DNA of 64,000 nt from Flavobacterium sp. 102 (GTDB lineage Bacteria > Bacteroidota > Bacteroidia > Flavobacteriales > Flavobacteriaceae). Where the stretch lies: NCBI RefSeq assembly GCF_003634615.1, contig NZ_RBKX01000001.1:3100001-3164000 (forward strand), read 5' to 3'. A program made the position numbers and the translations under genes. Positions 21,314-50,495 of the stretch are shown here, one piece after another. The notes beneath the pieces are model-generated. The model made no database searches and had not been told where the DNA came from. It saw only the letters and a list, made by a program, of their open reading frames with translations. How positions within the stretch are numbered: position 1 is the first letter of the stretch; each line of letters opens with the position of its first letter.

Positions 21314-22546
21314 TTATAATTTCAAAGTGCTTTGCATCTTCTTTTCAATCAGATCCATCGATTCTTTGGTGACACCTGCTTCTTTGGCATACCGTTTCCA
21401 TTGGGATATAGCATGCTTAACCTGCTCTATGATTACAGCTCCATTTTTCAATCTAAATTCATTCGCCAATTCAAGCAAATGGCTTTTTCCCGGATTCGTG
21501 CCTTCTCTGGCTATAGTAGTACTGTGCATTCCGTGTAAAGAATTGGAATAAGTTAAATCATAAGCGGGTGCCAGTTGCCATTTTCCTGCTGCATCCATCA
21601 GATAGGATATGTTTTTACTGTGATCGTCCCGGTTATGAGCAAAAACATTAAAAGCAGCTATCCTTAGTATTTTCTCCTGTCCGGCTACATCCTGTTCCAG
21701 TCGAAAAGTGGCATCCATCAAATTACCGTAATCCATGGTACTATACCTAAAGTTGTCATTCAGCATACCGGCTGCCGAATGCAAATGAAGTCGGCCATTT
21801 TCGCTTCTGTCAAATCGTTTAGTGCCAAAAAACACCTTTCCCGATTCGGTTTCAAATAACTTACAAGGATTCATATTAATTCCTGCAGTTAGCGCCATTT
21901 TATGATATGCATATTCTATTGAAGCAATATCGGTTCTGTCATTGGATGATGGAAATTTTATAAGCCAGTGTTCATATCCCTTCGGCAAAGGCTCTATACC
22001 ATGAATCAAATGTTCGGTTTTAGGATGATATCCAACAAGTATCTTAGGTCTTGCCCCTCCCGAGGAACCACCCATTTCATATAATTCATCAATCGCTAAA
22101 GAACTAGCACCTTGTAATACCACAGTCATTTCTTTGGCAATCGCCTCTAAATCAACTAGTAATGTTTCTTGAGCAGCCGTTTCAATTTGAGGACGATAAA
22201 GCAACGCTCCCATACCCTTTAAACCAACATAGGACAATCGCTGTAAAGGCGTAATATCTTGTACTAGAATACCTTTTGCAGTCAAGGTTCTGTCCAATAA
22301 TAAACGTCCCCATCCGTCAGGCAATGAATCCGAAAACACACCAAACAATCCTTCAAAGGGTTGCACGGGCGCAGTATATATACTATCATTCAACGGTAAA
22401 TAAAAAGGAGAAAGTTCAAGTCCTGTTTTAATAAATTCCGTATAATATTTAAAATAAATACCTCTGCCTTCCTTTATCAATTCTCCAACTTGCAGTTCTT
22501 TATCACCAAAATCAAGGGAAACGGTAACTTTTTGAATGGGTTTCAT
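21314..22546 (-). CDS. hipA: HipA family serine/threonine kinase toxin
   Basis: A 410-residue HipA-like kinase. The glycine-rich loop is GGSSGGARPKI near residue 158, the catalytic segment is AHNRDDHSKNISY at about 303-315, and the metal-binding AYDL is at 330-333, so the kinase looks intact. HipA toxins phosphorylate targets such as glutamyl-tRNA synthetase and induce dormancy; the target here is unknown. It starts 2 bases after the stop of the hipB-like antitoxin gene on the same strand. Confidence 0.9.
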   Translation of the reverse strand: MKPIQKVTVSLDFGDKELQVGELIKEGRGIYFKYYTEFIKTGLELSPFYLPLNDSIYTAPVQPFEGLFGVFSDSLPDGWGRLLLDRTLTAKGILVQDITPLQRLSYVGLKGMGALLYRPQIETAAQETLLVDLEAIAKEMTVVLQGASSLAIDELYEMGGSSGGARPKILVGYHPKTEHLIHGIEPLPKGYEHWLIKFPSSNDRTDIASIEYAYHKMALTAGINMNPCKLFETESGKVFFGTKRFDRSENGRLHLHSAAGMLNDNFRYSTMDYGNLMDATFRLEQDVAGQEKILRIAAFNVFAHNRDDHSKNISYLMDAAGKWQLAPAYDLTYSNSLHGMHSTTIAREGTNPGKSHLLELANEFRLKNGAVIIEQVKHAISQWKRYAKEAGVTKESMDLIEKKMQSTLKL

Positions 22547-22548
22547 TA

Positions 22549-22836
22549 CTATCTGGTTTTATCACTGAATAATTTGGCTACACTTCCTAAATCAGCATCA
22601 ATACTGAATACAGGGGTAAAATCGTCAAGACGGTTAAAAAAATAAGCCAATTTCAATAGTGATTCCAACGAAATTTGACCCGTTGTTTCAAAACGCTTGA
22701 TGCTTCCAAAAGATACACCAGATCGTTTAGACAATTCAAGCTGAGATATTCCGTTTTTTTTTCGCAATTGCTGAACCTTCAGGACTAGTTCTTCCATCAC
22801 AGCAGTTGGCGTTTTTGTGGCACTGTATTTTGACAT
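22549..22836 (-). CDS. hipB: HipB-like XRE antitoxin
   Basis: A 95-residue protein with an XRE helix-turn-helix at about residues 15-70 (ISQLELSKRSGVSFGSIKRFE). It precedes hipA with a 2-base gap, the usual antitoxin-first order. HipB proteins bind and neutralise HipA and repress their own operon. Two copies of the palindrome ATAATATATTAT lie upstream, centred 39 bp apart, and are the likely operators. Confidence 0.9.
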   Translation of the reverse strand: MSKYSATKTPTAVMEELVLKVQQLRKKNGISQLELSKRSGVSFGSIKRFETTGQISLESLLKLAYFFNRLDDFTPVFSIDADLGSVAKLFSDKTR

Positions 22837-34699: not shown

Positions 34700-35200
34700 T
34701 TACCAATCTGGCTGCCAATCTATCCAATCAGGATCAACATTTTTTACCTTTAAATAATAATATTCTACATTTTTAACTAAAATTATTAATGTGTCTTTTT
34801 TGAAATTCATGACACCGGCACCACCACCTCCAGCAACACCACCACCATTATAAAAAGTGCAGTATGTTTTTTTCTTTTTTACAAAATAAGTCCCTTGCAG
34901 TCCTCTCGCGGGTCTAAAATATTCTTTACTTAAAGCAATTCTTGAAGCATAACTGATTAATTTTCCTTTACCGTAAAATCTGATAAATGAATCTTCTTTT
35001 GGTATAAAAAAATCTCCAATGGTTTTATATTTTATTAACTGATATAATGCTAAAGTATCTAATGCTTTATAAATGCTATCAGGGGTGTTTAATTTTTTAT
35101 TATCAATTATTCTTGCGGGTACATGATACTCATTGTATTGCACCTTATAACATGAACAAAATAACGATAAAACAAAAGCAAATAAAATTAATTTTACCAT
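34700..35200 (-). CDS. Putative lipoprotein of unknown function
   Basis: A 166-residue protein with a short signal sequence and lipobox CSC (Cys17). The mature part has a Gly/Ala-rich stretch FYNGGGVAGGGGAGVMNF followed by beta-like strands and ends DWIDWQPDW. I recognise no family. Its ATG lies inside the last codons (TCATGGTAA) of the upstream gene remnant, so it once overlapped a neighbour, as in tightly packed toxin/immunity-type pairs (inference). Confidence 0.6.
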   Translation of the reverse strand: MVKLILFAFVLSLFCSCYKVQYNEYHVPARIIDNKKLNTPDSIYKALDTLALYQLIKYKTIGDFFIPKEDSFIRFYGKGKLISYASRIALSKEYFRPARGLQGTYFVKKKKTYCTFYNGGGVAGGGGAGVMNFKKDTLIILVKNVEYYYLKVKNVDPDWIDWQPDW

Positions 35201-35290
35201 GATGTAAAGACATTAGGAGTTCTGTATTGAAAATAAGTGCTAGTACTGTTATAGGCTCAGTAAAAAAATAAAGGTGAATAAATTTTTCAT
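35194..35290 (-). pseudogene. Remnant with signal-peptide start joined to ...YRTPNVFTSW end
   Basis: From ATG at 35290 the frame reads MKNLFTFIFLLSL, a signal-peptide start, and stops. One frame over, the sequence reads TYFQYRTPNVFTSW and TAA at 35194-35196. This is a gene with most of its middle deleted. Confidence 0.55.
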
Positions 35291-36067
35291 AATATATGAT
35301 TTAAGTATTGTTGTAAAATGCTTAAAATTCAATATAATTTGGGTACCATATTAACGCCAGCAAACAATCATCTACAAAGCATTTGATAGAATCAGCTGAA
35401 GAGGTAAATAATTAGTTAACTAAATATTTGCCAAAAAGCTACCTCCATTTACTTAGTAAATGTGAAAGTGGACTTAAAATGGAATCTTAATTGAAATCTG
35501 TTCTTTTTTTGAAAAAAGAAATAAAACCCGCAAGTGGTATTTTGGCCTTATTTAATACGAAAGTATATAAAAATTTGTAAGAAAAAAATATATTGTCAAC
35601 TATTTGACATCCATTACTCCAAAATGCATATTGAAGTTCAAAAAAAGTAGTTTCAAAAAATTAGAAAGTAACCAGCTGAGCCTCAAAACCAAAGAAAACA
35701 CTTCTCATCCTATCTACTCCTTAGCTCTTAAAAAAAATACCGTCACAATTATTGAAATAACTTTTCAAAGCTATTCGTCCTTCCATTAAAAATCAATAGA
35801 CACTTCGGGAAAAACATTAATACACACTACGCGACTTGCGACGGACATGCCCACAGCATCTACGAGCTCCTTTAGAAGACAAATAAGTACGCATTTCGCA
35901 AAATTTTTATTCTAAGCTTATTTAAATAATGTGGAAATCGAGTATTAAACCTAACTCTGCGTCCTCTATTTTTTCTATACTAACAGATACTTTTTCCATA
36001 AGGATTAAGACTTTATGATAAAGTCACTATCTAGATATTTAAAACAATAAATATTTTTAAAAAAAAC
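35291..36067. other. Gap of about 780 bp without a clear gene
   Basis: AT-rich, with a doubtful 61-codon frame at 35604-35789 and a dispersed repeat at 35802-35938 that recurs at 47378-47514. I see no other function. Confidence 0.5.
35802..35938. repeat. Dispersed repeat A, copy 1
   Basis: Conserved blocks are CGACTTGCG-CGGACATGCCCAC, ACGAGCTCCTTTA-AAGACAAATAA and AAGCTTA-TT-AATAATGTGG. Copy 2 at 47378-47514 matches throughout at roughly three bases in four (by eye). No transposase is nearby. Confidence 0.7.
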
Positions 36068-36081
36068 AGACCGATTGGTTT
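36068..36081. promoter_or_regulatory. TetR operator, copy 1 (before tetR)
   Basis: AGACCGATTGGTTT is an imperfect palindrome of the classic TetR type (AGACCG...CGGTCT). It is 9 bases upstream of the tetR -7 box. A more symmetric copy lies at 36734-36747. Confidence 0.7.
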
Positions 36082-36089
36082 ATTTTAAT

Positions 36090-36097
36090 TACTTTTG
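36090..36097 (+). promoter_or_regulatory. TAnnTTTG -7 box for tetR
   Basis: TACTTTTG. A TTG that could serve as an upstream start codon (36095) is part of this box, which rules it out. Confidence 0.55.
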
Positions 36098-36118
36098 ACT
36101 AAATTAATTCCATTTATA

Positions 36119-36715
36119 ATGATACTTTCAAAAGCAGACCGCACTAAACAATTCATAATAGAAAAAACAGCACCTATTTTCAATGAAAAAGGATTTCTCG
36201 GAACTTCTATGAGTGATATTTTAGAGGCTACAGGCTTGAGTAAAGGGTGTGTTTATGGCAATTTCGAAAACAAAGATGAAATAGCACTAGCTGCTTTTGA
36301 TGAAAATTATAATACAATTGTGGCCTATTTAAGAAAACAAATCGAAGTTAGACCTAACATGATTGATAGATTATTAGTATATCCCGAGACCTATAGAAAA
36401 TTTTTAGAACTACCATTCTTAAAAGCGGGATGCCCCATATTGAATACTTCAACGGAAGCCGATGATACGCATCCCTTGTTAAGGCAAAAAGCGATTACCG
36501 CACTTAATTTTTGGAAAAAAGCCATTGAAAAATCAATCGCAACAGGTATTGAAAGAAAGGAGATTAAAGCATCTACCAACGCAAATGAATTTTCATATAT
36601 ATTAATGTCATTAATAGAAGGTGCCATGATGCAATCTAAAGTTACTGGAAGTTCTGAAGCCCTTGTAGTTACTATGAAATATTTGGAAGAAATGATTAAA
36701 AATTTAAAGGAATAA
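36119..36715 (+). CDS. TetR family repressor
   Basis: A 198-residue protein from ATG 36119. The N-terminal TetR domain has KADRTKQFIIEKTAPIFNEKGF, TSMSDILEATGLSKGCVYGNF and NKDEI. The helical C-terminal ligand pocket contains Cys at FLKAGCPILN, which could sense electrophiles (inference). Operator-like palindromes lie before it and before the next gene, so it likely represses itself and the following twelve-gene run. Confidence 0.9.
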   Translation: MILSKADRTKQFIIEKTAPIFNEKGFLGTSMSDILEATGLSKGCVYGNFENKDEIALAAFDENYNTIVAYLRKQIEVRPNMIDRLLVYPETYRKFLELPFLKAGCPILNTSTEADDTHPLLRQKAITALNFWKKAIEKSIATGIERKEIKASTNANEFSYILMSLIEGAMMQSKVTGSSEALVVTMKYLEEMIKNLKE

Positions 36716-36733
36716 AAAAATTTACAACAAAAA

Positions 36734-36747
36734 AGACCAATCGGTCT
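36734..36747. promoter_or_regulatory. TetR operator, copy 2 (before the DinB-fold operon)
   Basis: AGACCAATCGGTCT is symmetric except for the centre and matches copy 1 in the other orientation. It lies 20 bases before the ATG of the first structural gene. Confidence 0.75.
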
Positions 36748-36766
36748 ATTGTTAAAACACTCATAA

Positions 36767-37279
36767 ATGGAAATTAAAACAGTAGAATCATTTCTAAACT
36801 ACTTCGAAAAAGTCCGTGAAGGAACAAATCGAATTATTCACGTCATTCCAAAAGACAAAATGAATTGGACTTATAAATCCGGAAAATTCACAATTGCAGA
36901 TATAATCAGACACATTGCTGCAATTGAAAGAAACGTGTTTGCAGAACTAGTATCAGGCAATATACCTTCTTATCAAGGATGTGGAAAAGAACTAGCAGAT
37001 GGTTATGATGAGGTACACTATTACTTCAATGAAATGCACAAACAATCTCTACAAATTTTCAACTCGTTAAGTGATGAAGATCTCAATAAAAAAATAACAA
37101 CATTAAGCAATGCTGAAACCAAAATAAGTAGTTTCTTAAGAGCGCTAGTAATTCACGAAATTCATCATTGTGGTGCACTATGTATCTATTTAAACCTATT
37201 AGATGTAGCAACACCTTCAATATTTGGGCTAACTGAAAAACAAGTGATTGAAAAATGCAATGTTATAAAAAACGAATAG
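36767..37279 (+). CDS. DinB/DfsB-fold protein 1
   Basis: A 170-residue four-helix-bundle protein of the DinB superfamily (not the polymerase). The metal ligands fit His49 in DIIRHIAAIER and two His in HEIHHCGAL near residue 128. The family includes thiol (bacillithiol, mycothiol) S-transferases and isomerases that conjugate toxic electrophiles. It is the first gene after the TetR operator. The substrate is unknown. Confidence 0.85.
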   Translation: MEIKTVESFLNYFEKVREGTNRIIHVIPKDKMNWTYKSGKFTIADIIRHIAAIERNVFAELVSGNIPSYQGCGKELADGYDEVHYYFNEMHKQSLQIFNSLSDEDLNKKITTLSNAETKISSFLRALVIHEIHHCGALCIYLNLLDVATPSIFGLTEKQVIEKCNVIKNE

Positions 37280-37304
37280 TAGAAACCTTTAAAATTTTAA
37301 AAAT

Positions 37305-37883
37305 ATGAATACAACATATTTAGAAAGTGTAAAAAAACAATTTGAGTATTACAAAATGCTCGGTGATAAAACCCTTGCTCAAATACCAGACGAAAAACTC
37401 TTTTGGCAATACAACGACGAAAGCAACAGTATTGCAATTATTGTAAATCACCTAAGTGGAAATATGTTGTCCCGTTGGACAGATTTTCTTACTTCCGACG
37501 GTGAAAAAGAATGGAGAAATCGGGATCAAGAATTTGAAAACAGCATTAAAACTAAAGATGAACTGCTACAAAAATGGAATGATGGCTGGACTTGCTTTTT
37601 CAATGCACTAAGCACTATACAAGAGGATGATTGGTCCACAATAATTTATATACGCAATCAAGGCCACACGGTTTTAGAAGCTATCAACAGACAACTGGCA
37701 CACTACCCCTACCACGTAGGTCAGATGGTGTTTATTGGAAAAATGATTCAAAATGAAAAGTGGGTTTCACTTTCTATTCCAAAAGGAAATTCTAGCACTT
37801 TCAATGCCGAAAAATTTTCTAAAGAAAAAAACAGAGAACATTTTACAAATGAGTTTTTAAATAAATCAAATAAAGATGAATAA
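37305..37883 (+). CDS. DinB-fold (DUF1572-type) protein 2
   Basis: A 192-residue member of the DUF1572/DinB group: IAIIVNHLSGNM near residue 45 gives the first His, and LAHYPYHVGQMVFIGKM near residue 135 the second and third. It overlaps the next gene by 8 bases. The second of five such proteins in this run, it is divergent in sequence from the first, so this is not a recent tandem duplication. Confidence 0.87.
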   Translation: MNTTYLESVKKQFEYYKMLGDKTLAQIPDEKLFWQYNDESNSIAIIVNHLSGNMLSRWTDFLTSDGEKEWRNRDQEFENSIKTKDELLQKWNDGWTCFFNALSTIQEDDWSTIIYIRNQGHTVLEAINRQLAHYPYHVGQMVFIGKMIQNEKWVSLSIPKGNSSTFNAEKFSKEKNREHFTNEFLNKSNKDE

Positions 37884-38397
37884 AAGCGAAATAATAACCA
37901 ACCTTATGGATTACCATGCCAAATTTTGGGAAACAGCAATTCAATTACCTAACCCAACTATTGGCATCAAGGGCAAATGGTCAGTATATCAAAATGTAGA
38001 TCACATTAACATTTCAATAATGAGATTAGGCAATTATCTGGCACTGCCAAAATCGCAAATCGAAACACTCTGTGGTTTATCAGAAAGAAGGTCAACTACC
38101 TATGAAAAACTTGTCAAAATATACCTTAATGCTATGTCAAGTGGCGTAAAAGCAACAGATGCTTTTATCCCGGAATTAAATCTCAACGGAGATATTAAAG
38201 AGTTAATCAACCATGGTAAAAATCTACTCGAAATATTCATTTCTAATTTGAATGATTGGACAGAAGAGGAGCTAGACCTATACCATTGCCCACACCCGGC
38301 TCTTGGAACAATAACGGTCAGAGAAACACTGTATTTTACTATTTACCATGTGCAACATCACGAGAAAATAATAATGAATCATTATTTAAAAAATTGA
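37876..38397 (+). CDS. DinB-fold protein 3
   Basis: A 173-residue protein with DHINISIMRLGNYL near residue 42 and FTIYHVQHHEKIIM near residue 155, giving the His triad of the DinB superfamily. It overlaps the preceding gene by 8 bases and lies 12 bases before a GNAT gene, so it is part of the same transcript. Confidence 0.82.
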   Translation: MNKSEIITNLMDYHAKFWETAIQLPNPTIGIKGKWSVYQNVDHINISIMRLGNYLALPKSQIETLCGLSERRSTTYEKLVKIYLNAMSSGVKATDAFIPELNLNGDIKELINHGKNLLEIFISNLNDWTEEELDLYHCPHPALGTITVRETLYFTIYHVQHHEKIIMNHYLKN

Positions 38398-38409
38398 AAA
38401 AAATAAGCC

Positions 38410-38937
38410 ATGAATATTCGATTTTTAGAAGAAAATGATGCAGTGATTTATCGCCAATTAAGACTTAGCAGTCTTCAAGAATCTCCTTTTGCGTTTAGTG
38501 ATAGTTATGAAGACCAAGTAAAAAATTCAATCATAGATTTTGAGTTGGAAATCAAGAAAACAGGTAATCCATTAGAAAGTTTCACTTTAGGTATATTTTC
38601 AAATCAAGACCAACTAATTGGCTTTGTGAAATTTAAAAGAGACCATCGTTCAAAAGCAAGACATCGGGCTTCTTTATTTTCGCTCTATGTTCAACCTAAT
38701 CATAGAGGAAAAGGAATCGCAAAAAAACTTATAAGTAGTTTGTTAAGCACCATCGGACCTATAACAGAGATTGAACAATTACAACTTTCTACTATCATTT
38801 CTAAAGATTCATTAATTGACTTTTATAAAAGCTTTGGTTTTGAAATACTGGGTGATGTAATTAAAAATGATTTAATTATTGATAATCAATATGTTGATGC
38901 AATCTATATGGTAAAGCATTTAAAAAATAAAAACTGA
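38410..38937 (+). CDS. GNAT acetyltransferase 1
   Basis: A 175-residue GNAT-fold protein. The acetyl-CoA-binding motif is LYVQPNHRGKGIAKKLI near residue 100, followed by FYKSFGFEILG near 140. It probably acetylates a small molecule or a protein N-terminus; the acceptor is unknown. It is in series with the DinB-fold genes, and could inactivate a toxic compound. Confidence 0.88.
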   Translation: MNIRFLEENDAVIYRQLRLSSLQESPFAFSDSYEDQVKNSIIDFELEIKKTGNPLESFTLGIFSNQDQLIGFVKFKRDHRSKARHRASLFSLYVQPNHRGKGIAKKLISSLLSTIGPITEIEQLQLSTIISKDSLIDFYKSFGFEILGDVIKNDLIIDNQYVDAIYMVKHLKNKN

Positions 38938-38967
38938 TATACAATGACATTTTAAAACAACACAAAT

Positions 38968-39486
38968 ATGAGCAATGGTTATGAAATTTTAAACACCGAG
39001 CATAGTGATTTAAAAATAATTTATCAATTGTTTGAAGAGGCAATCGATTATATAAAAAGGAATAATTATATCGGATGGACGACCTATGATAAGACCTACT
39101 TAATTAAGGATTTAGAAAACAAACTTCAATTCAAAATAACAGCAAACGATGAAATACTCGCAGTTTTTAGCATCTGCTTCAGTGATGCCCTTATTTGGAG
39201 AGAAATGGAAAATGGCGACGCAATCTATTTGCATAGAATTGTAGTTAATCCGGTGTTTAAAGGACAAAAGCAAATTGATAAAATTCTGCATTGGATAAAA
39301 GAATTTGCTGCAGAAAAGGGATTGAAATACATCCGTATGGATACTTGGGCAGCCAATCCAAACATAATTGAATACTATAAAAGCTTTGGCTTTATTCATA
39401 TTGAAGATTACACAACGCCAAATACACCAGAGCTTCCCGATCAACATCGAAATCTCAAAGTGGCTTTATTAGAAATGGAGTTATAA
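38968..39486 (+). CDS. GNAT acetyltransferase 2
   Basis: A 172-residue GNAT protein with IVVNPVFKGQKQIDKIL in place of the more standard Q/R-x-x-G-x-G/A loop, and EYYKSFGFIHIEDY near residue 130. The loop is atypical (GQKQ rather than GxGxG), so activity may be altered. It differs from the neighbouring GNAT and is not its tandem copy. Confidence 0.82.
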   Translation: MSNGYEILNTEHSDLKIIYQLFEEAIDYIKRNNYIGWTTYDKTYLIKDLENKLQFKITANDEILAVFSICFSDALIWREMENGDAIYLHRIVVNPVFKGQKQIDKILHWIKEFAAEKGLKYIRMDTWAANPNIIEYYKSFGFIHIEDYTTPNTPELPDQHRNLKVALLEMEL

Positions 39487-39504
39487 CCAATTTATTCAAG
39501 CGAT

Positions 39505-40026
39505 ATGAAACAAACAAAATGGTTTGACAGGAGTTTTAATTTTGATAATCAACAAAATATTTTTCCATCTATTTTAGAACGCCTTTCAGGAACTCCAATC
39601 AGATTGGAAGAGAAGGTTAAAGATGTGACAGAAAATATTTTGATATTTTCTGATGATAATACTTGGTCAATAAAAGAGAACATCGGGCATTTAATCGACC
39701 TTGAAACACTTTGGCAAGGAAGGCTTGATGATATTAAAAATGACCAACTAGAGCTACGACCAACTGATCTGCAAAACACTAAAACCGATTTAGCAAATCA
39801 CAATGCCAAATCAATACAAGATCTTCTCTCTGATTTTAGAAAAATAAGAACACAAACTTTACTAACCCTTCGAGCTATTGATGATGAAACAGTCTTCAAA
39901 TCAGCACTTCATCCCAGATTAAAAATACCCATGCGAACTATGGATCTTTATTTATTCGTAGCAGAACATGACGATCATCACTTGGCCAGAATAACGGAAT
40001 TAATTGAAACTTTAAAAAGAAATTAA
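39505..40026 (+). CDS. DinB-fold protein 4
   Basis: A 173-residue DinB-family protein: ENIGHLIDLETLW near residue 53 carries the first His and VAEHDDHHLARITEL near residue 150 the others. It lies 12 bases before a racemase-like gene. By its EHDDHHLARI signature it belongs to a different DinB subgroup than the DUF1572-type proteins in the same run. Confidence 0.88.
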   Translation: MKQTKWFDRSFNFDNQQNIFPSILERLSGTPIRLEEKVKDVTENILIFSDDNTWSIKENIGHLIDLETLWQGRLDDIKNDQLELRPTDLQNTKTDLANHNAKSIQDLLSDFRKIRTQTLLTLRAIDDETVFKSALHPRLKIPMRTMDLYLFVAEHDDHHLARITELIETLKRN

Positions 40027-40038
40027 AACACGAATAAC

Positions 40039-40719
40039 ATGAAAAAAATAGGTTTAGTTGGAGGCATAAGTTGGGTGTCCACAATGGATTATTATAAATT
40101 GATAAACGAAGGCATTAACAAAAAGCTAGGAGGGCTAAATGCCGCTGAATGTGTAATCTATTCACTGAACTTTGGGGATGTACAGGCTCTTAGTTGGACC
40201 AATGCCTACGATTTATTACTCAATGCTTGCGAAAGTTTAAAAAAAAGTGGGGTTGATTGCATAGTACTTTGCGCCAATACAGCACATTTATTTGCCGATA
40301 AATTACAAGAAAACATACAGTTACCCATGATTCATATTGTTGAGGAAACGGCAAAAGTTTTAAATGAAAAAGGCATCAAAAAAGCAGGGCTTTTAGGAAC
40401 TAAATTCACTATGGAAATGGACTTCTACAGTAAAAAATTACAGGAGTTTGGTATCGAAGTAATCATTCCCGATCGTCAAGAGACAAGAGATTACATACAG
40501 CAGACCATTAAAGAAGAATTGGGTATAGGCTTTATTAATCCCGATACCAAATTAAGATATATTGATATTGCAAATGAATTAATTAAAAATGGTGTGGAGT
40601 GCATTATTCTGGGTTGTACAGAAATACCAACCTTAATCTCCCAAAATGACTTTTCATTCCCCATTATCGATACAGCAAAAGTACACTCAGATGCGATAGT
40701 TGATTACGCAACGAACTAG
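40039..40719 (+). CDS. Aspartate/glutamate racemase family protein
   Basis: A 226-residue protein with the two catalytic-cysteine segments: VLCANTAHLFAD near residue 75 and IILGCTEIPTLIS near 190, as in cofactor-independent amino-acid racemases of the Asp/Glu family. The usual length is 230-250, so it is complete. The product could be D-aspartate, or the enzyme may act on a hydantoin-type compound. Confidence 0.88.
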   Translation: MKKIGLVGGISWVSTMDYYKLINEGINKKLGGLNAAECVIYSLNFGDVQALSWTNAYDLLLNACESLKKSGVDCIVLCANTAHLFADKLQENIQLPMIHIVEETAKVLNEKGIKKAGLLGTKFTMEMDFYSKKLQEFGIEVIIPDRQETRDYIQQTIKEELGIGFINPDTKLRYIDIANELIKNGVECIILGCTEIPTLISQNDFSFPIIDTAKVHSDAIVDYATN

Positions 40720-40763
40720 CAATAACAAGTAACATATAAAATCAAATTTAGAGCAATTATATC

Positions 40764-41342
40764 ATGAAAAAAGCAGTAATTGTAGCATTCGATAAATTCA
40801 CAGACATCGATATTTTTTTGGCTTGGGACTTACTCAATCGGGTAAAATTTCGCGACAAAGAATTTCAAGTAAAAATCATCGGCACAGGATCATCTCACAA
40901 ATCCGTTTGCGGACTTGACATAACCACTCACGGACTTATTGAAGAATGTAATGAGGCTGACCTAGTCTTTTTCGGTAGTGGTCAGGAAACACGAAATTTA
41001 GTCAAAGACAACCTTTATCTCGAACGTTTTAAATTAAATCCAAGCAAACAAATAATCTGTTCAATGTGCTCGGGAGCGTTAATTATAGCGGCTCTCGGAC
41101 ACCTAAACGGCCTTTCGGCTACCACTTACCCATCTGCGTTCGAAGATTTAGAAAACTATGGTGTTAAGGTACATAAAGACAAACATCTGGTGACTCACGG
41201 AAATATAGGAACAGCCGCCGGTTGCTTAGCTGCGATTGACTTATTTGGGTGGGCAATTGAAAAACTTTATGATAGTAAGGTGAAAGATGCAGTTATCGCT
41301 TCTGTCTTACCAATTGGACAAGGACAGGTTTGTATTTATTAA
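40764..41342 (+). CDS. DJ-1/PfpI family protein
   Basis: A 192-residue protein. The nucleophilic elbow is CSMCSGALIIAALG near residue 108, and the flavodoxin-like fold is plain. The family includes stress-response deglycases, isonitrile hydratases and amidases. In this TetR-regulated run with DinB-fold proteins, a role against reactive carbonyl compounds is plausible (inference). Confidence 0.85.
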   Translation: MKKAVIVAFDKFTDIDIFLAWDLLNRVKFRDKEFQVKIIGTGSSHKSVCGLDITTHGLIEECNEADLVFFGSGQETRNLVKDNLYLERFKLNPSKQIICSMCSGALIIAALGHLNGLSATTYPSAFEDLENYGVKVHKDKHLVTHGNIGTAAGCLAAIDLFGWAIEKLYDSKVKDAVIASVLPIGQGQVCIY

Positions 41343-41416
41343 TTCTATCCTCAAACAGTCTTTCATAATCTCATTCAAAAAGGACAATCAAACAAAATTA
41401 ACCGAATTATTAAAGT

Positions 41417-42379
41417 ATGAATGATACTAAAAAAACAAGAATTGCGATTGCAGGTATTGGCGGAATTGGTGGATATATTGGTGGGAAATTAGCATATCAT
41501 TATTTGAATACTGAGAATGTAGAAATTATATTTATAGCAAGAGGAGAAATAGCAGCAGCCATTAACAAAAATGGTTTGTGGCTAGATTCTAATGACACTT
41601 CCTATCAATGTATACCAACCTTAACTTCTGACAATCCCTCTGAAATCGGGATAATAGATATACTCATAGTCTGTACAAAAACCTTTTCTGTAGAAGAAAT
41701 ATTTATAAAATATGCGGTTAACCTCTCGTCAGATGTAACAATAATTACCACACAAAACACAGTAAATGGAAAAGAAAAGTTAACGCCTTACTTACCAGAA
41801 CTGGCAACACTTATGGAAGGAAGTATTTACATAGCTTCAAACATCGTTAAACCGGGTAAAATACAACACGTTAGTGGCCCTGCAAAACTTTTTTTTGGTA
41901 CAGAAGGAGAAAGCAATAGTAAAGGACATAAGATTGCCAAAATCCTTAATGATGCAGGTATAAATGCAACCTACACTACTAATATAAATTCTGTTGTGTG
42001 GAAGAAGTTTATGTTCGTTTCTCCAGCGGCCATCGTCACAGCGATTTTCGAAATTACTTTTTCTGAAATATTGGAAACTACAAAATCAGAATATTTGTTT
42101 ATCAATTTAACTTCTGAATTAATGCAATTGGCTGCTGCAAAAAAGATTGCTTTTGATGATAATACAGTGCTTAACAATATGAATTTACTCCTCAATTTTA
42201 AAAGACATGGAAAATCTTCGTTTCAACTGGATTTAGAGAAAAACAAACAAACGGAAGTGGATTCACTAATAAAATATGTTATTGAAGAAGCCAAATTATT
42301 TCAGATTCCAACACCTCATTTTGAAAGCGGATTAACTCAATTGATTGAAAAACATAATACGTTATCAAATAGTTTTTAA
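41417..42379 (+). CDS. 2-Dehydropantoate 2-reductase-like protein
   Basis: A 320-residue ketopantoate-reductase-like enzyme: the Rossmann motif GIGGIGGYIGGKLA begins near residue 14, IARG near 44, and NSVVWKKFMFVSPAAIVTA near 195 carries the catalytic Lys. It would reduce a 2-oxo acid with NADPH. Within this operon it may be a paralogue with another substrate, not the pantothenate pathway enzyme (inference). Confidence 0.85.
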   Translation: MNDTKKTRIAIAGIGGIGGYIGGKLAYHYLNTENVEIIFIARGEIAAAINKNGLWLDSNDTSYQCIPTLTSDNPSEIGIIDILIVCTKTFSVEEIFIKYAVNLSSDVTIITTQNTVNGKEKLTPYLPELATLMEGSIYIASNIVKPGKIQHVSGPAKLFFGTEGESNSKGHKIAKILNDAGINATYTTNINSVVWKKFMFVSPAAIVTAIFEITFSEILETTKSEYLFINLTSELMQLAAAKKIAFDDNTVLNNMNLLLNFKRHGKSSFQLDLEKNKQTEVDSLIKYVIEEAKLFQIPTPHFESGLTQLIEKHNTLSNSF

Positions 42380-42447
42380 AAAATATCAATCGAAGATTCT
42401 AATAAAATCAAGGCAAATTACAATTTCATTTTTATTGACTTTATAAA

Positions 42448-42888
42448 ATGATTACAAACACATTATCATTACTTTTTGATCTAAATCTAAAAAAATTAAT
42501 TTCCGAAATTGAGCTTTATAAAAATGAAGACGATATATGGCGAATAGAAAAAAATATTTCTAATTCCGCCGGAAATTTAGTGTTACATATAATTGGAAAC
42601 TTAAACACTTACATTGGAAAGGAAATTGCAAAAAATAATTATGTTAGAAATAGAGAGCTTGAATTTTCTACTAAAAATATTCCAAGAAAAGATTTAATTG
42701 AAAGTATTACTGAAATTAGACAAGTCATTAACAAATCACTTAAAACGCTAACTCATAAAGACCTAAAAAGAGAATACCCTCTTTTAGTTTTATCAGAAAT
42801 GACAACCACTGAGTACCTACTGGTTCATTTAGCAACTCATTTATCATATCATCTCGGACAAATTAATTACCACAGAAGATTTATTTAA
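42448..42888 (+). CDS. DinB-fold (DUF1572-type) protein 5
   Basis: A 146-residue protein with NLVLHIIGNLNTYIGKE near residue 45 and LATHLSYHLGQINYHRRF at the C-terminus, the DUF1572/DinB metal-binding pattern. It is the fifth member of the superfamily in about 6 kb. It lies 21 bases before an esterase gene. Confidence 0.85.
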   Translation: MITNTLSLLFDLNLKKLISEIELYKNEDDIWRIEKNISNSAGNLVLHIIGNLNTYIGKEIAKNNYVRNRELEFSTKNIPRKDLIESITEIRQVINKSLKTLTHKDLKREYPLLVLSEMTTTEYLLVHLATHLSYHLGQINYHRRFI

Positions 42889-42909
42889 GCACAAATATAT
42901 TCAGATAAA

Positions 42910-43752
42910 ATGATTAGAATTATTTTAATAGTCGTTATAGCAACAGCATCACTTGGTTTTGGCCAAAATCAAAAACAATTTGTATTAGGCAATATTGACG
43001 AAATTTATTCCAAAGAATTAAACGAAAAAAGAACTTTAAATATTTACCTTCCGGAAGGTTATAATTTAAATGACACCATACAATATCCGGTTATTTACCT
43101 TCTTGACGGTTCGGCGAACGAAGATTTTATTCACATTGTAGGAATAGTGCAATTCAATAATTTTGAATGGGTAAATCAAGTGCCAAAGTCTATCGTGGTA
43201 GGTATCGCAACGGTTGACAGACGTAGAGATTTTACATTTCCTACTACTATTGATAAAGATTTATTAGCATATCCAACTTCTGGCAACTCCAATAAATTTA
43301 TTGCATTTATTGAAAACGAATTACAGCCGTTTATTGAAAAGAAGTATAAAACAAATTCGACCAAGACAATAATTGGACAATCTTTAGGGGGCTTGTTAGC
43401 TACACAAATTTTAATAACCAAACCAGTACTTTTTACTAAATATATTATTATAAGCCCAAGTTTGTGGTGGAATAATGGTTCAATTTTAAATCAAGAAATA
43501 CAATGGTGGCAAACCAATTTGGCTCAAAAAACTGACGTCTACATTGCTGTTGGAAAAGAAGGTTTCACACCAACTGAAATTCCCAGAGTAATGGAAGTGG
43601 ATGCAAATCTATTAGCTGAGAAAATACGAAATATTCAAAACACAAACTTTTCTGTTTTTTTTGATTATTTACCACAAGAAAATCACGCTACAATAATGCA
43701 TCAGGCAGTATTAAATGCATTTAAGGTGTTAGATTCAAAAAATAAGAAATAG
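42910..43752 (+). CDS. Exported esterase D-like alpha/beta hydrolase
   Basis: A 280-residue protein with a signal peptide (IILIVVIATASLGFG-QN). The esterase-D pattern includes YPVIYLLDG near residue 60, the nucleophile elbow IGQSLGGLLA near 158 and a late His in ENHATIMHQ. The family includes siderophore esterases and carbohydrate esterases. It closes the run of twelve genes. The next 745 bp hold gene remnants only. Confidence 0.83.
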   Translation: MIRIILIVVIATASLGFGQNQKQFVLGNIDEIYSKELNEKRTLNIYLPEGYNLNDTIQYPVIYLLDGSANEDFIHIVGIVQFNNFEWVNQVPKSIVVGIATVDRRRDFTFPTTIDKDLLAYPTSGNSNKFIAFIENELQPFIEKKYKTNSTKTIIGQSLGGLLATQILITKPVLFTKYIIISPSLWWNNGSILNQEIQWWQTNLAQKTDVYIAVGKEGFTPTEIPRVMEVDANLLAEKIRNIQNTNFSVFFDYLPQENHATIMHQAVLNAFKVLDSKNKK

Positions 43753-43805
43753 GTTCATCACGAAGCCTCTTCTACAATCCGTATCGTGCTGTAATAATAC
43801 TCAGG

Positions 43806-43952
43806 CTATCCTTCGGGTTGGCTTTCTTCGTCAGCATGTAGCTCCTGCACCCTATTCAAAAACTCAGGCACGTCATTGGGAATAAGTTGTATTGCCAGCT
43901 CCATGATATTGGCCAGGTCAATATTAGGATTGCCTACCGTCGATGAAGGTTA
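43806..43952 (-). pseudogene. C-terminal gene fragment of unknown family
   Basis: The minus-strand frame reads SSTVGNPNIDLANIMELAIQ and ends VQELHADEESQPEG-stop. It lacks a start and is closed upstream by TAA. Codon use looks protein-like, but I recognise no family. Confidence 0.4.
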
Positions 43953-43974
43953 CACATTCGTCTGGCTGAAATGT

Positions 43975-44314
43975 CTACTTTTTTATTGCCTTAAGTTCTA
44001 TTTTCCCGTAACAGTCATTTTCCCAAACGGTTTCAGAAGGTAGCATAAATTCCATAAAAATCGGCAAAGCCTCTACTAACTAAATTAACTTGTCCGATAT
44101 GTGTATTGAGATAATTAATATTTTGTCCTGTAACTCCATCCTCCACAAAAAACAAATTTCCAATTCCTGTCCTCGCAAAAAGATTGCATTTTCAGAAATA
44201 TTAGGGAATTTTCTACCTAATACATTGTAGTCGTCCGGATTTACCAGCCAAAACAAGCCCTCCCTATAAACATTCTTCAGGTTGTGTAATTTGTAGAATT
44301 TCTTCTATAGCCAT
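43975..44314 (-). pseudogene. Frameshifted DUF1851-type protein (immunity-like)
   Basis: Four frames read in order on the minus strand: MAIEEILQIT from ATG 44314; LKNVYREGLFWLVNPDDYNV; TGIGNLFFVEDGVTGQNINY followed by LNTHIGQVNLVSRGF; and LPSETVWENDCYGKIELKA up to TAG 43975. This is the body of a DUF1851 domain protein (related to T6SS immunity protein Tdi1) broken by three or more indels. The N-terminal third is missing. Confidence 0.65.
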
Positions 44315-44497
44315 GCTAGAAATTTTATTTTATGTTTCTTTTAAACTATTTAAATAGCCAATTACTTCATTTCCAGACATGAAGCTACTCTTTTGAAATA
44401 ACCTAAAAATTGTTCTGATTAAATCCATTTATGGGTTTATTTGATACTCTCTCAAACTACATTCGTCAGTTGGCTCAAGATATCGTTTTGTTATTCA

Positions 44498-45103
44498 TTA
44501 AATCTTCGTCCGTCCCTCCATGCGATCTTGGACGGTTACACCTTTTTCCTTAATAAAATCAAACATGCTTACTAAATCGCCAACGGCCTCATCTTTTGAA
44601 ATACCAAGACTGGGGTTTGATTTTAATGTTGCTTTGGCAATTGATTTAAAAATAAAAAACTGGCCTTTAAGCAAAACGTCAACATCTTTAAAAAACACCC
44701 GCAATATTGGATTGGAAATATGTCCTCTCAATTCAACGTGCTCTATGTTATCCCAGGACACAAAAGCCTTTCGTAACAATTGCTGATTGATAAACAAACC
44801 TTCATTGCTAACACCGACTGCTGGTTGTTTTAGGTCTTGCTTAAAGAACAAATACGCCAAAAAAAGAGGAAAGGCTACCAATCCCCAACTTCCAATAGAA
44901 AACAATGTAGCCGGCCAACCCACCTCTGCATTTATCCGAGCTCCTTTTCTATACACTATTGCTTCATGTACGCGTCCTTCGTAAAACAATCTGGCAACAA
45001 TCATCAAAACTATACACAATACTATAAGTATAAGTAAATTTCGCATTCCTTTTTTTATATTTTTGGAGTGTTGGGCCACCGCAATTAATTCCAAATCCTT
45101 CAT
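44498..45103 (-). CDS. Two-helix membrane protein, STM3941-like
   Basis: A 201-residue protein with hydrophobic helices at about residues 21-43 and 68-87, then a soluble C-terminal part with VGVSNEGLFINQQLLRKAFVSWDNIEHVEL, typical of the PH-like domain of STM3941-type proteins. Function unknown. On the same strand as two other minus-strand genes with gaps of about 50-115 bp, so co-transcription is possible but not shown. Confidence 0.6.
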   Translation of the reverse strand: MKDLELIAVAQHSKNIKKGMRNLLILIVLCIVLMIVARLFYEGRVHEAIVYRKGARINAEVGWPATLFSIGSWGLVAFPLFLAYLFFKQDLKQPAVGVSNEGLFINQQLLRKAFVSWDNIEHVELRGHISNPILRVFFKDVDVLLKGQFFIFKSIAKATLKSNPSLGISKDEAVGDLVSMFDFIKEKGVTVQDRMEGRTKI

Positions 45104-48242: not shown

Positions 48243-49103
48243 GTGGAAAACATTCCGATACGACGAATAAAGGGACAAAATGAACCCCAACTCTCCGGTA
48301 GTTTTACTATCAGGGATATCACGCCTTTGTTGCTTGAAAAAGACATGATTCAGGAATTGCACCGACATGATTTTTACTATATACTGGTGGTAAAAAAAGG
48401 AACCGGCAGCCACGAAATTGACTTTACCACTTACGACGTAAACGACCATACTGTTTTTATGATGCGTCCCGGTCAAGTGCACCAACTTGCGTTGAAAGCC
48501 AACAGCACGGGCTATCTGATACAATTTAAAACAGATTTTTTATACTCCCATAACAGTGCCTCGCAAAACCATTTAACCAAATTGATCCAATACAATACCT
48601 ACCAACTGGAACCGGAAGGATTTGCTAAAATCGAAGGGGTTTTAGGGGAAGCAATAAAGGAATATACCGAGAAAGCCAAAGGATACCAGGAAGTACTGAA
48701 AGCCAACCTGAGTATTTTCCTTATCGAATTGCTGAGACAACGGCAGCTTAAAGTAATGCCTGCCGCGCAAAGCAGTCCTTATGCACAGGAAAAATTGGAA
48801 CAATTTCTGGAACTCGTAGAAGCCAAGTGTACAACACACAAACAGGTCTCTCAGTACACCGACTTACTACACCTGTCTTCCTATCAACTCAGTGCCATCA
48901 CAAAGAACTTATTAAACAAAACACCCTCTGAGATTATAAATGATTATCTCATACTGGAGGCCAAGCGCCAACTTTTGGCGACTTCCAATCAAATCAACCA
49001 AATTGCCTACAATCTGGGCTATGAAGATGCTTCTTATTTTACCCGATTTTTTAAGAAACATACTGCCGCTTCACCGGAAGCCTTCCGACAAAACTCTAAA
49101 TAA
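48243..49103 (+). CDS. AraC family regulator with cupin-type sensor
   Basis: A 286-residue protein from a GTG start. The N-terminal AraC-binding cupin covers about residues 20-100 (LHRHDFYYILVV...MMRPGQVHQLAL). The C-terminal AraC helix-turn-helix ends with NQIAYNLGYEDASYFTRFFKKHTAASPEAFRQ. It likely responds to a small ligand and controls nearby genes, perhaps the flavoprotein or SDR genes downstream (inference). Confidence 0.9.
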   Translation: MENIPIRRIKGQNEPQLSGSFTIRDITPLLLEKDMIQELHRHDFYYILVVKKGTGSHEIDFTTYDVNDHTVFMMRPGQVHQLALKANSTGYLIQFKTDFLYSHNSASQNHLTKLIQYNTYQLEPEGFAKIEGVLGEAIKEYTEKAKGYQEVLKANLSIFLIELLRQRQLKVMPAAQSSPYAQEKLEQFLELVEAKCTTHKQVSQYTDLLHLSSYQLSAITKNLLNKTPSEIINDYLILEAKRQLLATSNQINQIAYNLGYEDASYFTRFFKKHTAASPEAFRQNSK

Positions 49104-49152
49104 GTACTAGTCATCTTCATTTTTGTCCTATTCTCTAGGTTTCTTCTCGAAG

Positions 49153-49160
49153 TAATTTTG
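49153..49160 (+). promoter_or_regulatory. TAnnTTTG -7 box before the small membrane gene
   Basis: TAATTTTG, about 30 bases before the first possible start (49192). Confidence 0.5.
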
Positions 49161-49278
49161 TCCTGTAAAATTATTTCAAAATGAAATCGATATGAAATCA
49201 AAGATTATTTCATCCGTTCGCCTTTCAGGCTCGGGTCACGAACTCCAAAAAAACAATTTTAAAGGGAGTAAAACAAAA

Positions 49279-49488
49279 ATGAAACTAATGGCTTCCTTAA
49301 AAATATGGTTGGCCATTTATCCGTCCATCACACTCTTCTTATTCTTTTTTGGTAAAGCACTAAATGCGCTTGCCTTATACCAAAGAACCTTTATTCTAAC
49401 CATCGCTTTAGTACCGTGGATTGTATTTGTTGGTGTTCCGGTGGTAGACTTTATCATGCGTCAGTTTACCACAAAAGACAAAAAATAA
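49279..49488 (+). CDS. Small two-helix membrane protein
   Basis: From ATG 49279 the product is 69 residues with two helices (WLAIYPSITLFLFFFGKAL and LTIALVPWIVFVGVPVV). GGGAG lies 11 bases upstream of this ATG. The longer frame from 49192 adds 29 hydrophilic residues with GSGHELQKNNF, which I think is untranslated. The TAA stop overlaps the ATG of the flavoprotein gene (TAATG), so the two are coupled. Confidence 0.6.
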   Translation: MKLMASLKIWLAIYPSITLFLFFFGKALNALALYQRTFILTIALVPWIVFVGVPVVDFIMRQFTTKDKK

Positions 49489-50495
49489 TGGCAAAAAACA
49501 ATATCCCCAGACGAGAGTTTATTAAACAAACAGGATTGGGAATGATAGCTTTTAACCTCCCCTTTCCATTTAAAGATTTTGATATGAAAACAGATAGCAA
49601 ACAGTTTGACGCCATTATTATCGGCGGAAGCTATTCGGGTTTAGCAGCAGGCATGGCACTAGGAAGAGCTTTAAAACAAGTCTTAATTATTGACAGTGGT
49701 AAGCCATGCAATGTCCAAACACCTCACTCACACAATTTCCTTACTCAGGATGGTAATACTCCAAAAGGAATTGCCTCTTTAGGAAAACAACAAGTAGAAA
49801 AATATCCTAATGTCACGTTTTTTAATGGGATTGCTGCTACCGGAAGTAAAATTGAAAAAGGATTTGAAATCATTACAGAAACAGGCGAAAAATTCTTGGC
49901 ATCAAAACTAATCTTCGCCACAGGCATTAAAGATGTAATGCCAAAAATTGATGGATTCTCAGAATGCTGGGGAATAACCACTATACATTGCCCCTACTGT
50001 CATGGTTATGAAGTGCGCAATACAAAAACAGGAATTTTAGGAAATGGTGATTATGCTTATGAGCTTTCCAAAATGATTTCCAATTGGACAAAAGATTTGA
50101 CCATTTATACCAATGGCCAATCCATTTTAACGGTGGAGCAAAGAACTAAGTTGCAAAAACACAACATTGCAGTAGTAGATAAAGAAATCCTAAAACTGGA
50201 CCACACCAAAGGACAACTGCAAAATGTGGTGTTTACCGATGGAACAAAAACACCATTAACTGCCTTGTATTCGCCCAGACCATTTGTACAACATTGTACC
50301 ATTCCCGAATCCTTAGGATGCGAAATAACTGAAGATGGCTATATCAAAGTTAATGGATTTCAGGAAACCACTGTAGCCGGTGTTTACGCTTGTGGTGACA
50401 ATACCACCCGCATGAGAACCGTGGCCAATGCCGTAGCCATGGGAACTACTGCAGGCATGTCTGCCAGCAAAAAACTGATTTTAGAACAATTTTAA
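49488..50495 (+). CDS. Thioredoxin-reductase-like flavoprotein with Tat-like N-terminus
   Basis: A 335-residue NAD(P)/FAD oxidoreductase with GGSYSGLAAGMALGRA (FAD site) near residue 42, CPYCHGYEV near 165 as redox-type Cys pair, and CGDNTTRM near 300. The N-terminus (IPRREFIKQTGLGMIAFNL) carries a twin-arginine motif followed by a hydrophobic patch, unusual for this class. An internal ATG at about residue 33 (MKTDSKQFDAIIIGG) gives the ordinary cytoplasmic form. It starts on the overlapping stop codon of the small membrane protein. Confidence 0.82.
   Translation: MAKNNIPRREFIKQTGLGMIAFNLPFPFKDFDMKTDSKQFDAIIIGGSYSGLAAGMALGRALKQVLIIDSGKPCNVQTPHSHNFLTQDGNTPKGIASLGKQQVEKYPNVTFFNGIAATGSKIEKGFEIITETGEKFLASKLIFATGIKDVMPKIDGFSECWGITTIHCPYCHGYEVRNTKTGILGNGDYAYELSKMISNWTKDLTIYTNGQSILTVEQRTKLQKHNIAVVDKEILKLDHTKGQLQNVVFTDGTKTPLTALYSPRPFVQHCTIPESLGCEITEDGYIKVNGFQETTVAGVYACGDNTTRMRTVANAVAMGTTAGMSASKKLILEQF

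Follow-up and report, generated by a model that had tools for sequence, protein, structure and literature searches.

A NemR-like TetR regulator and paired palindromes at the head of a DinB-rich gene array in Flavobacterium sp. 102, a candidate inducible detoxification operon

Among the described systems closest to the locus treated here, a tetR gene followed by eleven co-directional open reading frames (ORFs) in Flavobacterium sp. 102, stands nemR-nemA-gloA of Escherichia coli K-12, where NemR, a TetR autorepressor of family PF16925, is encoded first in a detoxification operon and has an AGACC-N4-GGTCT palindrome before its own gene. A review ties Cys106 of NemR to hypochlorite sensing, and Cys21 and Cys116 to electrophiles (PMC7464077). 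The Flavobacterium locus sits in one 3.8-Mb contig (NZ_RBKX01000001.1), in a stretch of 64,000 nt (positions 3,100,001 to 3,164,000) whose full length is called the window hereafter; in the ORF list of the window, tetR occupies positions 36119-36715 and the eleven ORFs 36767-43752, all on the plus strand. Shared with the E. coli operon are the regulator family, the palindrome before the regulator gene, equivalents of Cys106 and Lys175, and the leading position of the repressor gene, and a VOC (glyoxalase-superfamily) protein, as found in the E. coli system, is present in 11 of 84 related arrays. The window locus differs in having a second operator before the array, probably within a separate promoter, in belonging to a bacillithiol-type host, in its eleven DinB-rich cargo genes, which form a mosaic and include no NemA, and in the absence of Cys21 and Cys116.

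AltR, likewise a NemR-related TetR, is reported to have one essential cysteine and to repress itself and ten other thiol-stress genes through inverted-repeat operators (PMC13178969). By that description, the alt allicin-tolerance cluster resembles the window locus in placing a NemR-related TetR over a thiol-stress cluster, and differs from it in operator sequence and gene content. Each element of the window locus is known singly, and the locus is placed among NemR/AltR-like inducible detoxification operons.

Bacillithiol transferases are best known from Firmicutes, and the genes for BstA-H of Bacillus subtilis are scattered in the genome, whereas the window carries five DinBs in one operon-like array behind one operator. 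The DinB/YfiT fold and three-His metal site are common to the window proteins, BstA-H and Staphylococcus aureus BstA (5wk0), as is, for B. subtilis, the presence of several divergent paralogues per genome. Three histidines are reported as the sole conserved residues of the eight B. subtilis enzymes, all of them metal-dependent (PMC5815605). Mobile integron cassette arrays also contain small same-strand genes in pools, GNAT and DinB among them; the window array differs in that one operator stands at its head, its genes overlap or are very closely spaced, and attC-like spacers do not recur.

Regulator, operators and their conservation

As the original prediction had proposed, similar palindromes precede both tetR and the run of genes behind it. 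Operator 1, AGACCGATTGGTTT (36068-36081), ends 37 bp before the tetR ATG, so that an AGACC-N4-GGTCT-type palindrome stands upstream of the regulator gene as in E. coli; the palindrome before nemR, AGACCGACTGGTCT, differs from it at two positions. Operator 2, AGACCAATCGGTCT (36734-36747), lies between tetR and DinB1, within the presumed promoter spacer. Eight bp past operator 1, TACTTTTG (36090-36097, plus strand) matches TAnnTTTG, the -7 promoter consensus of Bacteroidetes; the ATG at 36119 is probably the start of tetR, because the alternative TTG at 36095 falls inside this element. The predicted run of twelve genes stands as a co-directional series with short gaps or overlap (51, 25, -8, 12, 30, 18, 12, 44, 74, 68 and 21 bp, from tetR through the esterase gene), but eleven of them follow the second palindrome, twelve being reached only when tetR is counted. 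The region 35200-44500 contains 5 terminator-like sites where 4.3 are expected by chance.

Taken alone, the window palindromes are mildly above chance, and it is the comparative evidence that is decisive. The 14-mer palindrome with up to three mismatches gives 7 matches in the window where 3.6 are expected, and its longer form gives 3 (one site being counted on both strands) against 0.37 expected, a number reached in 2 of 100 shuffles. For the comparison, a named-genome scan with an alignment of five TetRs returned at least 80 loci, a sample biased to close TetRs. Among the 80 listed, 78 belong to Bacteroidota (Flavobacterium, Chryseobacterium, Chitinophagaceae, Sphingobacterium, Cytophagales, Saprospiria and others, as assigned from genome names) and two to Limnohabitans metagenome-assembled genomes (L053 and L056), possibly through a binning error. 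Scan loci and loci from relatives' genomes together provided 99 TetRs, the window's included, of which 14 are under 50% identity; duplicates (L032, L034, L035 and L082) had been dropped, near-copies such as L164 of L051 were kept, L129 yielded no TetR call, and L181-L187 stand outside these counts.

In 87 of the 99 loci the interval from tetR to the following gene contains a palindrome of the form xACC-N4-GGTx, to be set against 61 such cases in 4532 control stretches (200 bp each). A palindrome of this form precedes tetR in 72/98 loci, and both sites are present in 64/98. At the downstream sites, TTTG stands 14 bp before the palindrome core in 36/86 cases and TAnnTTT starts at +10 in 29/86 (an offset that overlaps the final two bases of palindromes with an outer T, the T-type, so that this signal is partly the operator itself); therefore, in many arrays the operator would fill the 20-nt spacer of a Bacteroidetes-type promoter. 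At the relatives' upstream sites, TAnnTTTG is commonest at +19 to +24. Within 35900-43800 of the window, plus strand, the strict Bacteroidetes-type pattern has a single match, at 43136 inside the last gene, and none at the promoter of either operator, where the elements are less regular.

The window TetR is matched by TetR_N (41.3 bits, cut-off 24) and TetR_C_13 (91.1 bits, cut-off 27), both of which also match E. coli NemR (39.1 and 40.7 bits), and by an LmrA/YxaF-like Pfam C-domain (43.7 bits, cut-off 27). Its closest solved structures, 3eup and 3qbm, are named merely as TetR-family regulators. When NemR was aligned with the 99 TetRs, window Cys105 fell in the column of NemR Cys106, which is Cys in 99/99, and Lys174 in that of Lys175, which is Lys in 92/99: 84 of the 85 TetRs at least 50% identical, the exception being truncated, and 8 of the 14 below 50%. 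Elsewhere in the window, a further TetR_N protein without a recognised C-domain is encoded on the minus strand at 57944-58498.

Operators of the relatives fall into two types according to their outer base, which is G in the window and T in the nearest relative, L160, whose TetR is 84% identical. Residue 44, which by the general layout of the TetR family would lie in the recognition helix, follows the type of site in 78 of the 80 TetRs showing both traits: Cys goes with G-type sites and Ser with T-type sites, the helix variants being KGCVYGNF and KGSIYGNF. Both combinations occur in Flavobacterium sp. 102, with Cys44 and GACC in the window and Ser44 and TACC in a paralogue at G000:C1:3208067. 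A tree built without column 44 implies 4 changes of the residue and 5 of the site. Taken alone, the independent-pairs test of this residue is not significant (2 pairs resting on starred branches, 4 with the best tree), and the tree, from which the truncated L125 tetR was excluded, has weak resolution, with 24 of its 94 inner branches starred, and long branches among distant rows. The association between residue 44 and operator thus appears strong by count and limited in independent events, and the tracking of the outer base by this residue argues that this TetR reads these sites. The paralogue mentioned above, the second TetR of the branch in the genome (G000:C1:3206626-3208654; L031:12627-14655), is 54% identical, has a T-type operator and is followed by a 292-aa exported-looking protein of the C11 family and a 4HBT thioesterase.

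The genome was also scanned with AAGACCNATYGGTYTATT, a pattern composed from the two window sites. Only two places in the 3.8 Mb, operators 1 and 2, lie within one mismatch of it, and a genome-wide regulon was rejected on this count; allowing two mismatches gave 12 matches, the array's own included, and 6 for the reversed control.

Array genes and their exchange among relatives

Five DinB-superfamily proteins had been proposed for the array, and all five pass a DinB-clan Pfam cut-off; they also diverge from one another as expected, with pairwise identities of 19-27%. DinB1 (36767-37279), DinB3 (37876-38397) and DinB4 (39505-40026) belong to DinB_2 with scores of 62.5, 36.1 and 47.8, all over the cut-off, DinB2 (37305-37883) is over the cut-offs of DUF1572 (260.4) and DinB_2 (40.2), and DinB5 (42448-42888), a short DUF1572-like protein, reaches 38.4 for DUF1572 (cut-off 23) and 21.7 for DinB_2, under 24.8. 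DUF1572 is assigned to the DinB clan, with three conserved histidines, in a published study (PMC4520260). At motif level, an upstream His and the HxxxH metal-site motif are found in each window protein: His49 and H130xxxH134 in DinB1, His49 and H133xxxH137 in DinB2, one of several upstream His and H158xxxH162 in DinB3, His62 and H155xxxH159 in DinB4, and His47 with HxxxH at 127/131 or 131/135 in DinB5. Across the arrays, 81 of 92 matches to DinB hidden Markov models follow the positional three-His rule, the 11 misses being eight small proteins (93-96 aa), L095_1, L161_3 and a 128-aa piece in L164. Tandem duplication of the window DinBs was ruled out by their low identity together with the closer relatives that they have in other species' arrays.

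Structure models of DinB2 and DinB5 (mean predicted local distance difference test scores, pLDDT, of 78 and 83) were searched against the PDB. For DinB2 the best match is the Mycobacterium tuberculosis mycothiol S-transferase 8f5v (E 8.8e-4, template-modelling score, TM, 0.61 by query), YfiT 1rxq being matched as well, and for DinB5 it is the S. aureus bacillithiol transferase BstA 5wk0 (E 1.3e-4, TM 0.73); each search returned one match at E <=0.001 and many DinB folds slightly above. Scores of DinB1 and DinB4 for the NCBIfam YfiT equivalog (31 and 28 bits) are far under its cut-off of 160. The genome itself encodes bshA (572.9 bits), bshB1 (310) and bshC (454.7), all over curated cut-offs, and N-methyl-bacillithiol has been measured in Polaribacter, a bacteroidete (PMC6282198).

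The other families that had been named for the array are likewise recovered with Pfam and NCBIfam. They comprise GNAT acetyltransferase 1 (38410-38937), GNAT acetyltransferase 2 (38968-39486; cluster C7, found in 13 loci), an aspartate/glutamate-type racemase (40039-40719; TIGR00035 210 bits against a cut-off of 93.1, Asp/Glu racemase family 133), a DJ-1/PfpI protein (40764-41342; DJ-1_PfpI 57.6), an ApbA/PanE-type ketoacid reductase (41417-42379; ApbA and ApbA_C) and a putative esterase (42910-43752; PF00756, 85.4) with an N terminus that looks signal-like by eye. The 8-bp overlap of DinB3 with DinB2 is also present in L051. GC content is 32.4% in the array against 37.4% in the rest of the window, and is similarly low (30.7%) in the 2 kb preceding the array.

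Cargo was compared among 84 arrays behind TetRs at least 50% identical, with L069 also left out, the four arrays without a called gene counted as one list, and families named from one representative each. Genes of relatives were called mechanically as the longest ORFs on the same strand with gaps of at most 250 bp, and some arrays consequently run into unrelated genes or stop at contig ends. Conservation of the cluster was found in a particular form: the arrangement of tetR, operator and mosaic array is widespread in Bacteroidota, though the 84 arrays hold 66 different gene lists and the exact list of the window occurs in the window alone. At the same time, 325 of the 397 cargo genes fall into 37 families that recur in at least two arrays, the commonest being 4HBT thioesterase (37 arrays), the DinB4 family (33) and DUF1572 (24), then thiolase (17), the DinB1 family (17) and dihydrolipoyl dehydrogenase (14), followed by GNATs and the VOC protein (11).

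Gene order is partly kept. Gene pairs are in the same order 481 times and in the opposite order 34 times at 70-85% TetR identity, and 87 and 54 times, respectively, at 50-60%; window pairs are 3 alike and 3 opposite relative to L160, and 10 alike with none opposite relative to each of L050 and L055. Cargo partners are also linked by fusions, of GNAT with DinB in L085 and L095 and of DUF1572 with ABM in L033. A survey of neighbourhoods for multiple DinBs behind one TetR found DinB-type proteins of at least 120 aa in 51 of the 80 arrays with cargo (28 with one, 15 with two, 7 with three), the window being alone in having five; smaller proteins were omitted from these counts because 93-aa ABM proteins are caught through the DUF1572-ABM fusions. 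Of ten such array proteins sampled, nine are over Pfam cut-offs and L076_7 is slightly under (22.3 against 24.8).

Relatives in other arrays exist for 10 of the 11 window cargo genes, and the nearest array differs gene by gene: L053 for DinB1 (81%), L160 for DinB2 (81%) and DinB3 (62%), L064 for GNAT1 (63%) and the esterase (55%), L050 for GNAT2 (69%), L054 for DinB4 (78%), L072 for the racemase (65%), L162 for ApbA (69%) and L081 for DinB5 (53%). The DJ-1/PfpI protein has no full-length relative in the other arrays compared. Overlap with L160, the locus of nearest TetR, is partial (Jaccard 0.38), its DinB4 and ApbA being merely 33% and 25% identical, and L183, with a TetR of 58%, has six of the eleven window cargo families. 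Racemase and DinB4 relatives (71% in L166 and 69% in L181) lie in fetched stretches from which the TetR is absent. Among 398 Flavobacterium genomes, the own one included, relatives of the TetR (E <=1e-55) occur in 45, and those of DinB1 and DinB4 (E <=1e-25) in 6 and 3; of the seven places with DinB1, four are behind this TetR (the window, L050, L033 and L183) and three are not (L185-L187). DUF1572 is common, with 239/398 genomes (E <=1e-15), and is mostly 60-70% identical among the matches listed; the DUF1572 locus L170 of the own genome has no adjacent TetR of this kind.

A tyrosine recombinase of 416 aa (Arm-DNA-bind_5, Phage_int_SAM_5 and Phage_integrase) directly precedes tetR in L051 and L160; between the end of its gene and the operator, about 10 bp remain in L160 and none in L051. 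Relatives of this integrase are found at 7 of the 99 loci, namely these two, L053 (77%, 1.7 kb upstream), L056 and L162 (pieces), and L085 and L119 (distant). No ORF of the window matches the L160 integrase or the recombinases of L182 and L184. Cargo also appears behind other regulators, one genome having the same first genes (ABM, DUF1572 and DinB3) both behind the TetR (L164:8458-13030) and behind an AraC/DJ-1 regulator (L163:8117-13464), and L185 carrying a MocR-type regulator gene beside an array with a DinB1 relative. A 96-aa ORF at 9319-9609 of the window is 52% identical to part of a 282-aa protein located after the L160 array, and 51% to its L163 relative, and may be what is left of a mobile element of this kind.

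An integron cassette array was rejected for the window, where gaps range from -8 to 74 bp, genes overlap and, among the repeats listed, no intergenic family is shared along the array. Integron-like arrays do occur in Flavobacterium: L182:7574-8629 and L184:5333-6382 encode XerC/integron-integrase-like recombinases (351 and 349 aa, 67% alike; TIGR02249 182 bits for that of L184, under the cut-off of 265) a short distance past a related tetR and a single array gene, and small, mostly same-strand ORFs with gaps of about 150-200 bp then follow. Same-strand small genes (DUF1572, GNAT, Crp-like and PhzF-like) stand in L169:1-19901 and also in L166 and L167; in L169, stretches of about 165 nt recur among them, some carrying inverted repeats.

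A conserved chromosomal site was considered and discarded too, the genes flanking the locus matching 8 of the loci compared, in one- or two-gene pieces. One block of the window at 48345-50495, made up of an ORF that by eye is AraC-like, a further small one and the gene of a Pyr_redox_2 protein, has relatives of 66-75% at 19202-20585 of L052, downstream of its TetR array. At 21314-22836 the window also encodes a HipA-like protein and, adjacent to it, a 95-aa ORF that by eye resembles a helix-turn-helix protein, possibly a HipAB-type pair.

Proposed mechanism and competing explanations

The explanation towards which we lean is that of a cysteine-sensing NemR-type autorepressor releasing a polycistron of bacillithiol-dependent and other detoxification enzymes, with cargo exchanged between lineages. 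The TetR, as a dimer, would occupy both palindromes, which are alike and lie at the tetR promoter and inside the array promoter, and would keep the eleven-gene polycistron off. Modification of Cys105 by an electrophile or a reactive chlorine species, perhaps tuned by Lys174, would make the dimer leave both operators, and tetR and the array would then be transcribed. The five BstA-like transferases may conjugate different electrophiles, by means of different pockets, using bacillithiol or N-methyl-bacillithiol, while the GNATs would cap amines and the DJ-1, ApbA, racemase and esterase proteins would act on carbonyl, acid and ester derivatives. The gene list would represent a local hand dealt from a phylum-wide pool of detoxification genes exchanged behind a conserved regulator and operator.

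These components differ in strength. Control of the operon through the arrangement of TetR and operators is well supported by the sequence comparison, and a single transcript would presumably be formed in vivo. The inducer class, electrophile or reactive chlorine, is suggested by the NemR-equivalent residues and the operator, two NemR cysteines being missing, and both the enzyme chemistry and the bacillithiol co-substrate are predicted from family, motif, fold and the thiol genes in the genome.

Several observations weigh against this explanation. The TetR resembles NemR distantly, with a profile score of 41 bits to 4yze. NemR Cys21 and Cys116 are not conserved, Phe and Asp standing in those columns, and the sensed chemistry may therefore differ from that of NemR. 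In 3eup and 3qbm, solved relatives nearer than NemR, the residue aligned with Lys174 is Arg, and the sulfenamide role of Lys175 is disputed, the NemR-based biosensor Hypocrates having stayed sensitive after Lys-to-Ala replacement (PMC8748444). The residue-44 rule is broken in L041 and L042, and NemR itself combines Ser44 with a G-type site, which therefore confines the rule to this TetR branch. The upstream site is absent in 26/98 loci, and the window promoter elements near operator 2 are degenerate (TTTA at 36721-36724 and TATTGTTA at 36747-36754). As for the cargo, DinBs are lacking from 29 of the 80 cargo-bearing arrays, thioesterase and thiolase, whose fit to electrophile conjugation is not obvious, take their place in many relatives, and relatives of DinB1 and DinB4 exist without this TetR (L181 and L185-L187). 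NCBIfam models for ScbR (70 bits, cut-off 150) and AcuR (52, cut-off 247), both below their cut-offs, also leave room for other ligand classes.

The latter matches, together with the LmrA/YxaF-like C-domain, would fit an operon induced by binding of an acyl or butyrolactone-like ligand rather than by redox sensing. Its enzymes would serve the uptake and modification of one class of molecules (acyl, lactone or plant-derived) as a loosely knit catabolic or specialised-metabolism route, and thiolase, 4HBT thioesterase, SDR and ketoacyl synthase genes in related arrays point the same way. We consider this improbable, if worth keeping in sight: a fixed pathway would keep its enzymes, whereas 66 lists are found in 84 arrays and the nearest relative shares a Jaccard index of 0.38, and the NemR cysteine and lysine are retained. 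Of the two functions that the original prediction had offered, inducible detoxification therefore stands in character, and specialised metabolism loses likelihood, since free turnover of the genes behind a constant regulator is unlike a fixed pathway. Less probable still is a resistance island against competitors' antibiotics, in which the DinB-fold proteins would act like self-resistance proteins, the GNATs would acetylate drugs and the TetR would sense a drug. The ClbS-type self-resistance proteins 6anr and 7mtl do figure among the fold matches of DinB5, GNAT, MBL-fold, VOC and methyltransferase genes recur in arrays, and occurrence is sporadic for the TetR, DinB4 and DinB1 (45, 3 and 6 of 398 Flavobacterium genomes). 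None of the 12 window proteins, however, is over the cut-off of an NCBIfam resistance family (PADLOC and resistance libraries were not searched), and such an island overlaps the detoxification explanation, since thiol conjugation inactivates drugs too.

Passive accretion, whereby a strong regulated promoter near a recombination-prone site would gather unrelated small genes of no common purpose, has the lowest probability in our estimate. It could account for the tyrosine recombinases adjoining the operator in L160 and L051 and located 1.7 kb upstream in L053, for cargo relatives behind an AraC/DJ-1 regulator (L163) or in arrays without this TetR (L185-L187), and for the scrambled order relative to L160. 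Yet the large majority of cargo genes (325/397) come from 37 recurring families, order is partly kept (10/10 pairs relative to L050 and to L055), and fusions join GNAT or ABM with DinB; recurring families, kept order and fusions therefore argue for selection for particular functions.

Significance for chemical defence in Bacteroidota

The original prediction did not recognise the unit from the literature, and our search agrees with it: a NemR-type regulator over an exchangeable, often DinB-bearing, phylum-wide array, with a residue that tracks the operator, was not found in the literature searched, subscription papers lying outside it. A broader generalisation is offered tentatively, as one that we do not yet hold to be the probable case. 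The locus would be a plug-in site for chemical defence throughout the phylum Bacteroidota, in which the cysteine-sensing, NemR-like two-operator switch is kept and the detoxification pool is dealt differently in most species, sometimes with integrases and even behind other regulators (L163 and L185); residue 44 would reset which operator is read, so that two copies per genome need not cross-talk.

Bacteroidota are prominent both in the environment and in the gut, and little of their thiol-based detoxification has been charted. A conserved sensor with exchangeable enzymes would provide a list of uncharacterised DinB, GNAT, thioesterase and ApbA proteins expected to share an inducer, and one inducer, once identified, would annotate the whole class. 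The link between residue 44 and the operator constitutes a testable specificity switch in this NemR-related TetR branch, NemR having already been used for a biosensor (PMC8748444). If true, the locus would be a case of cargo turnover behind a conserved regulator and operator, outside integrons.

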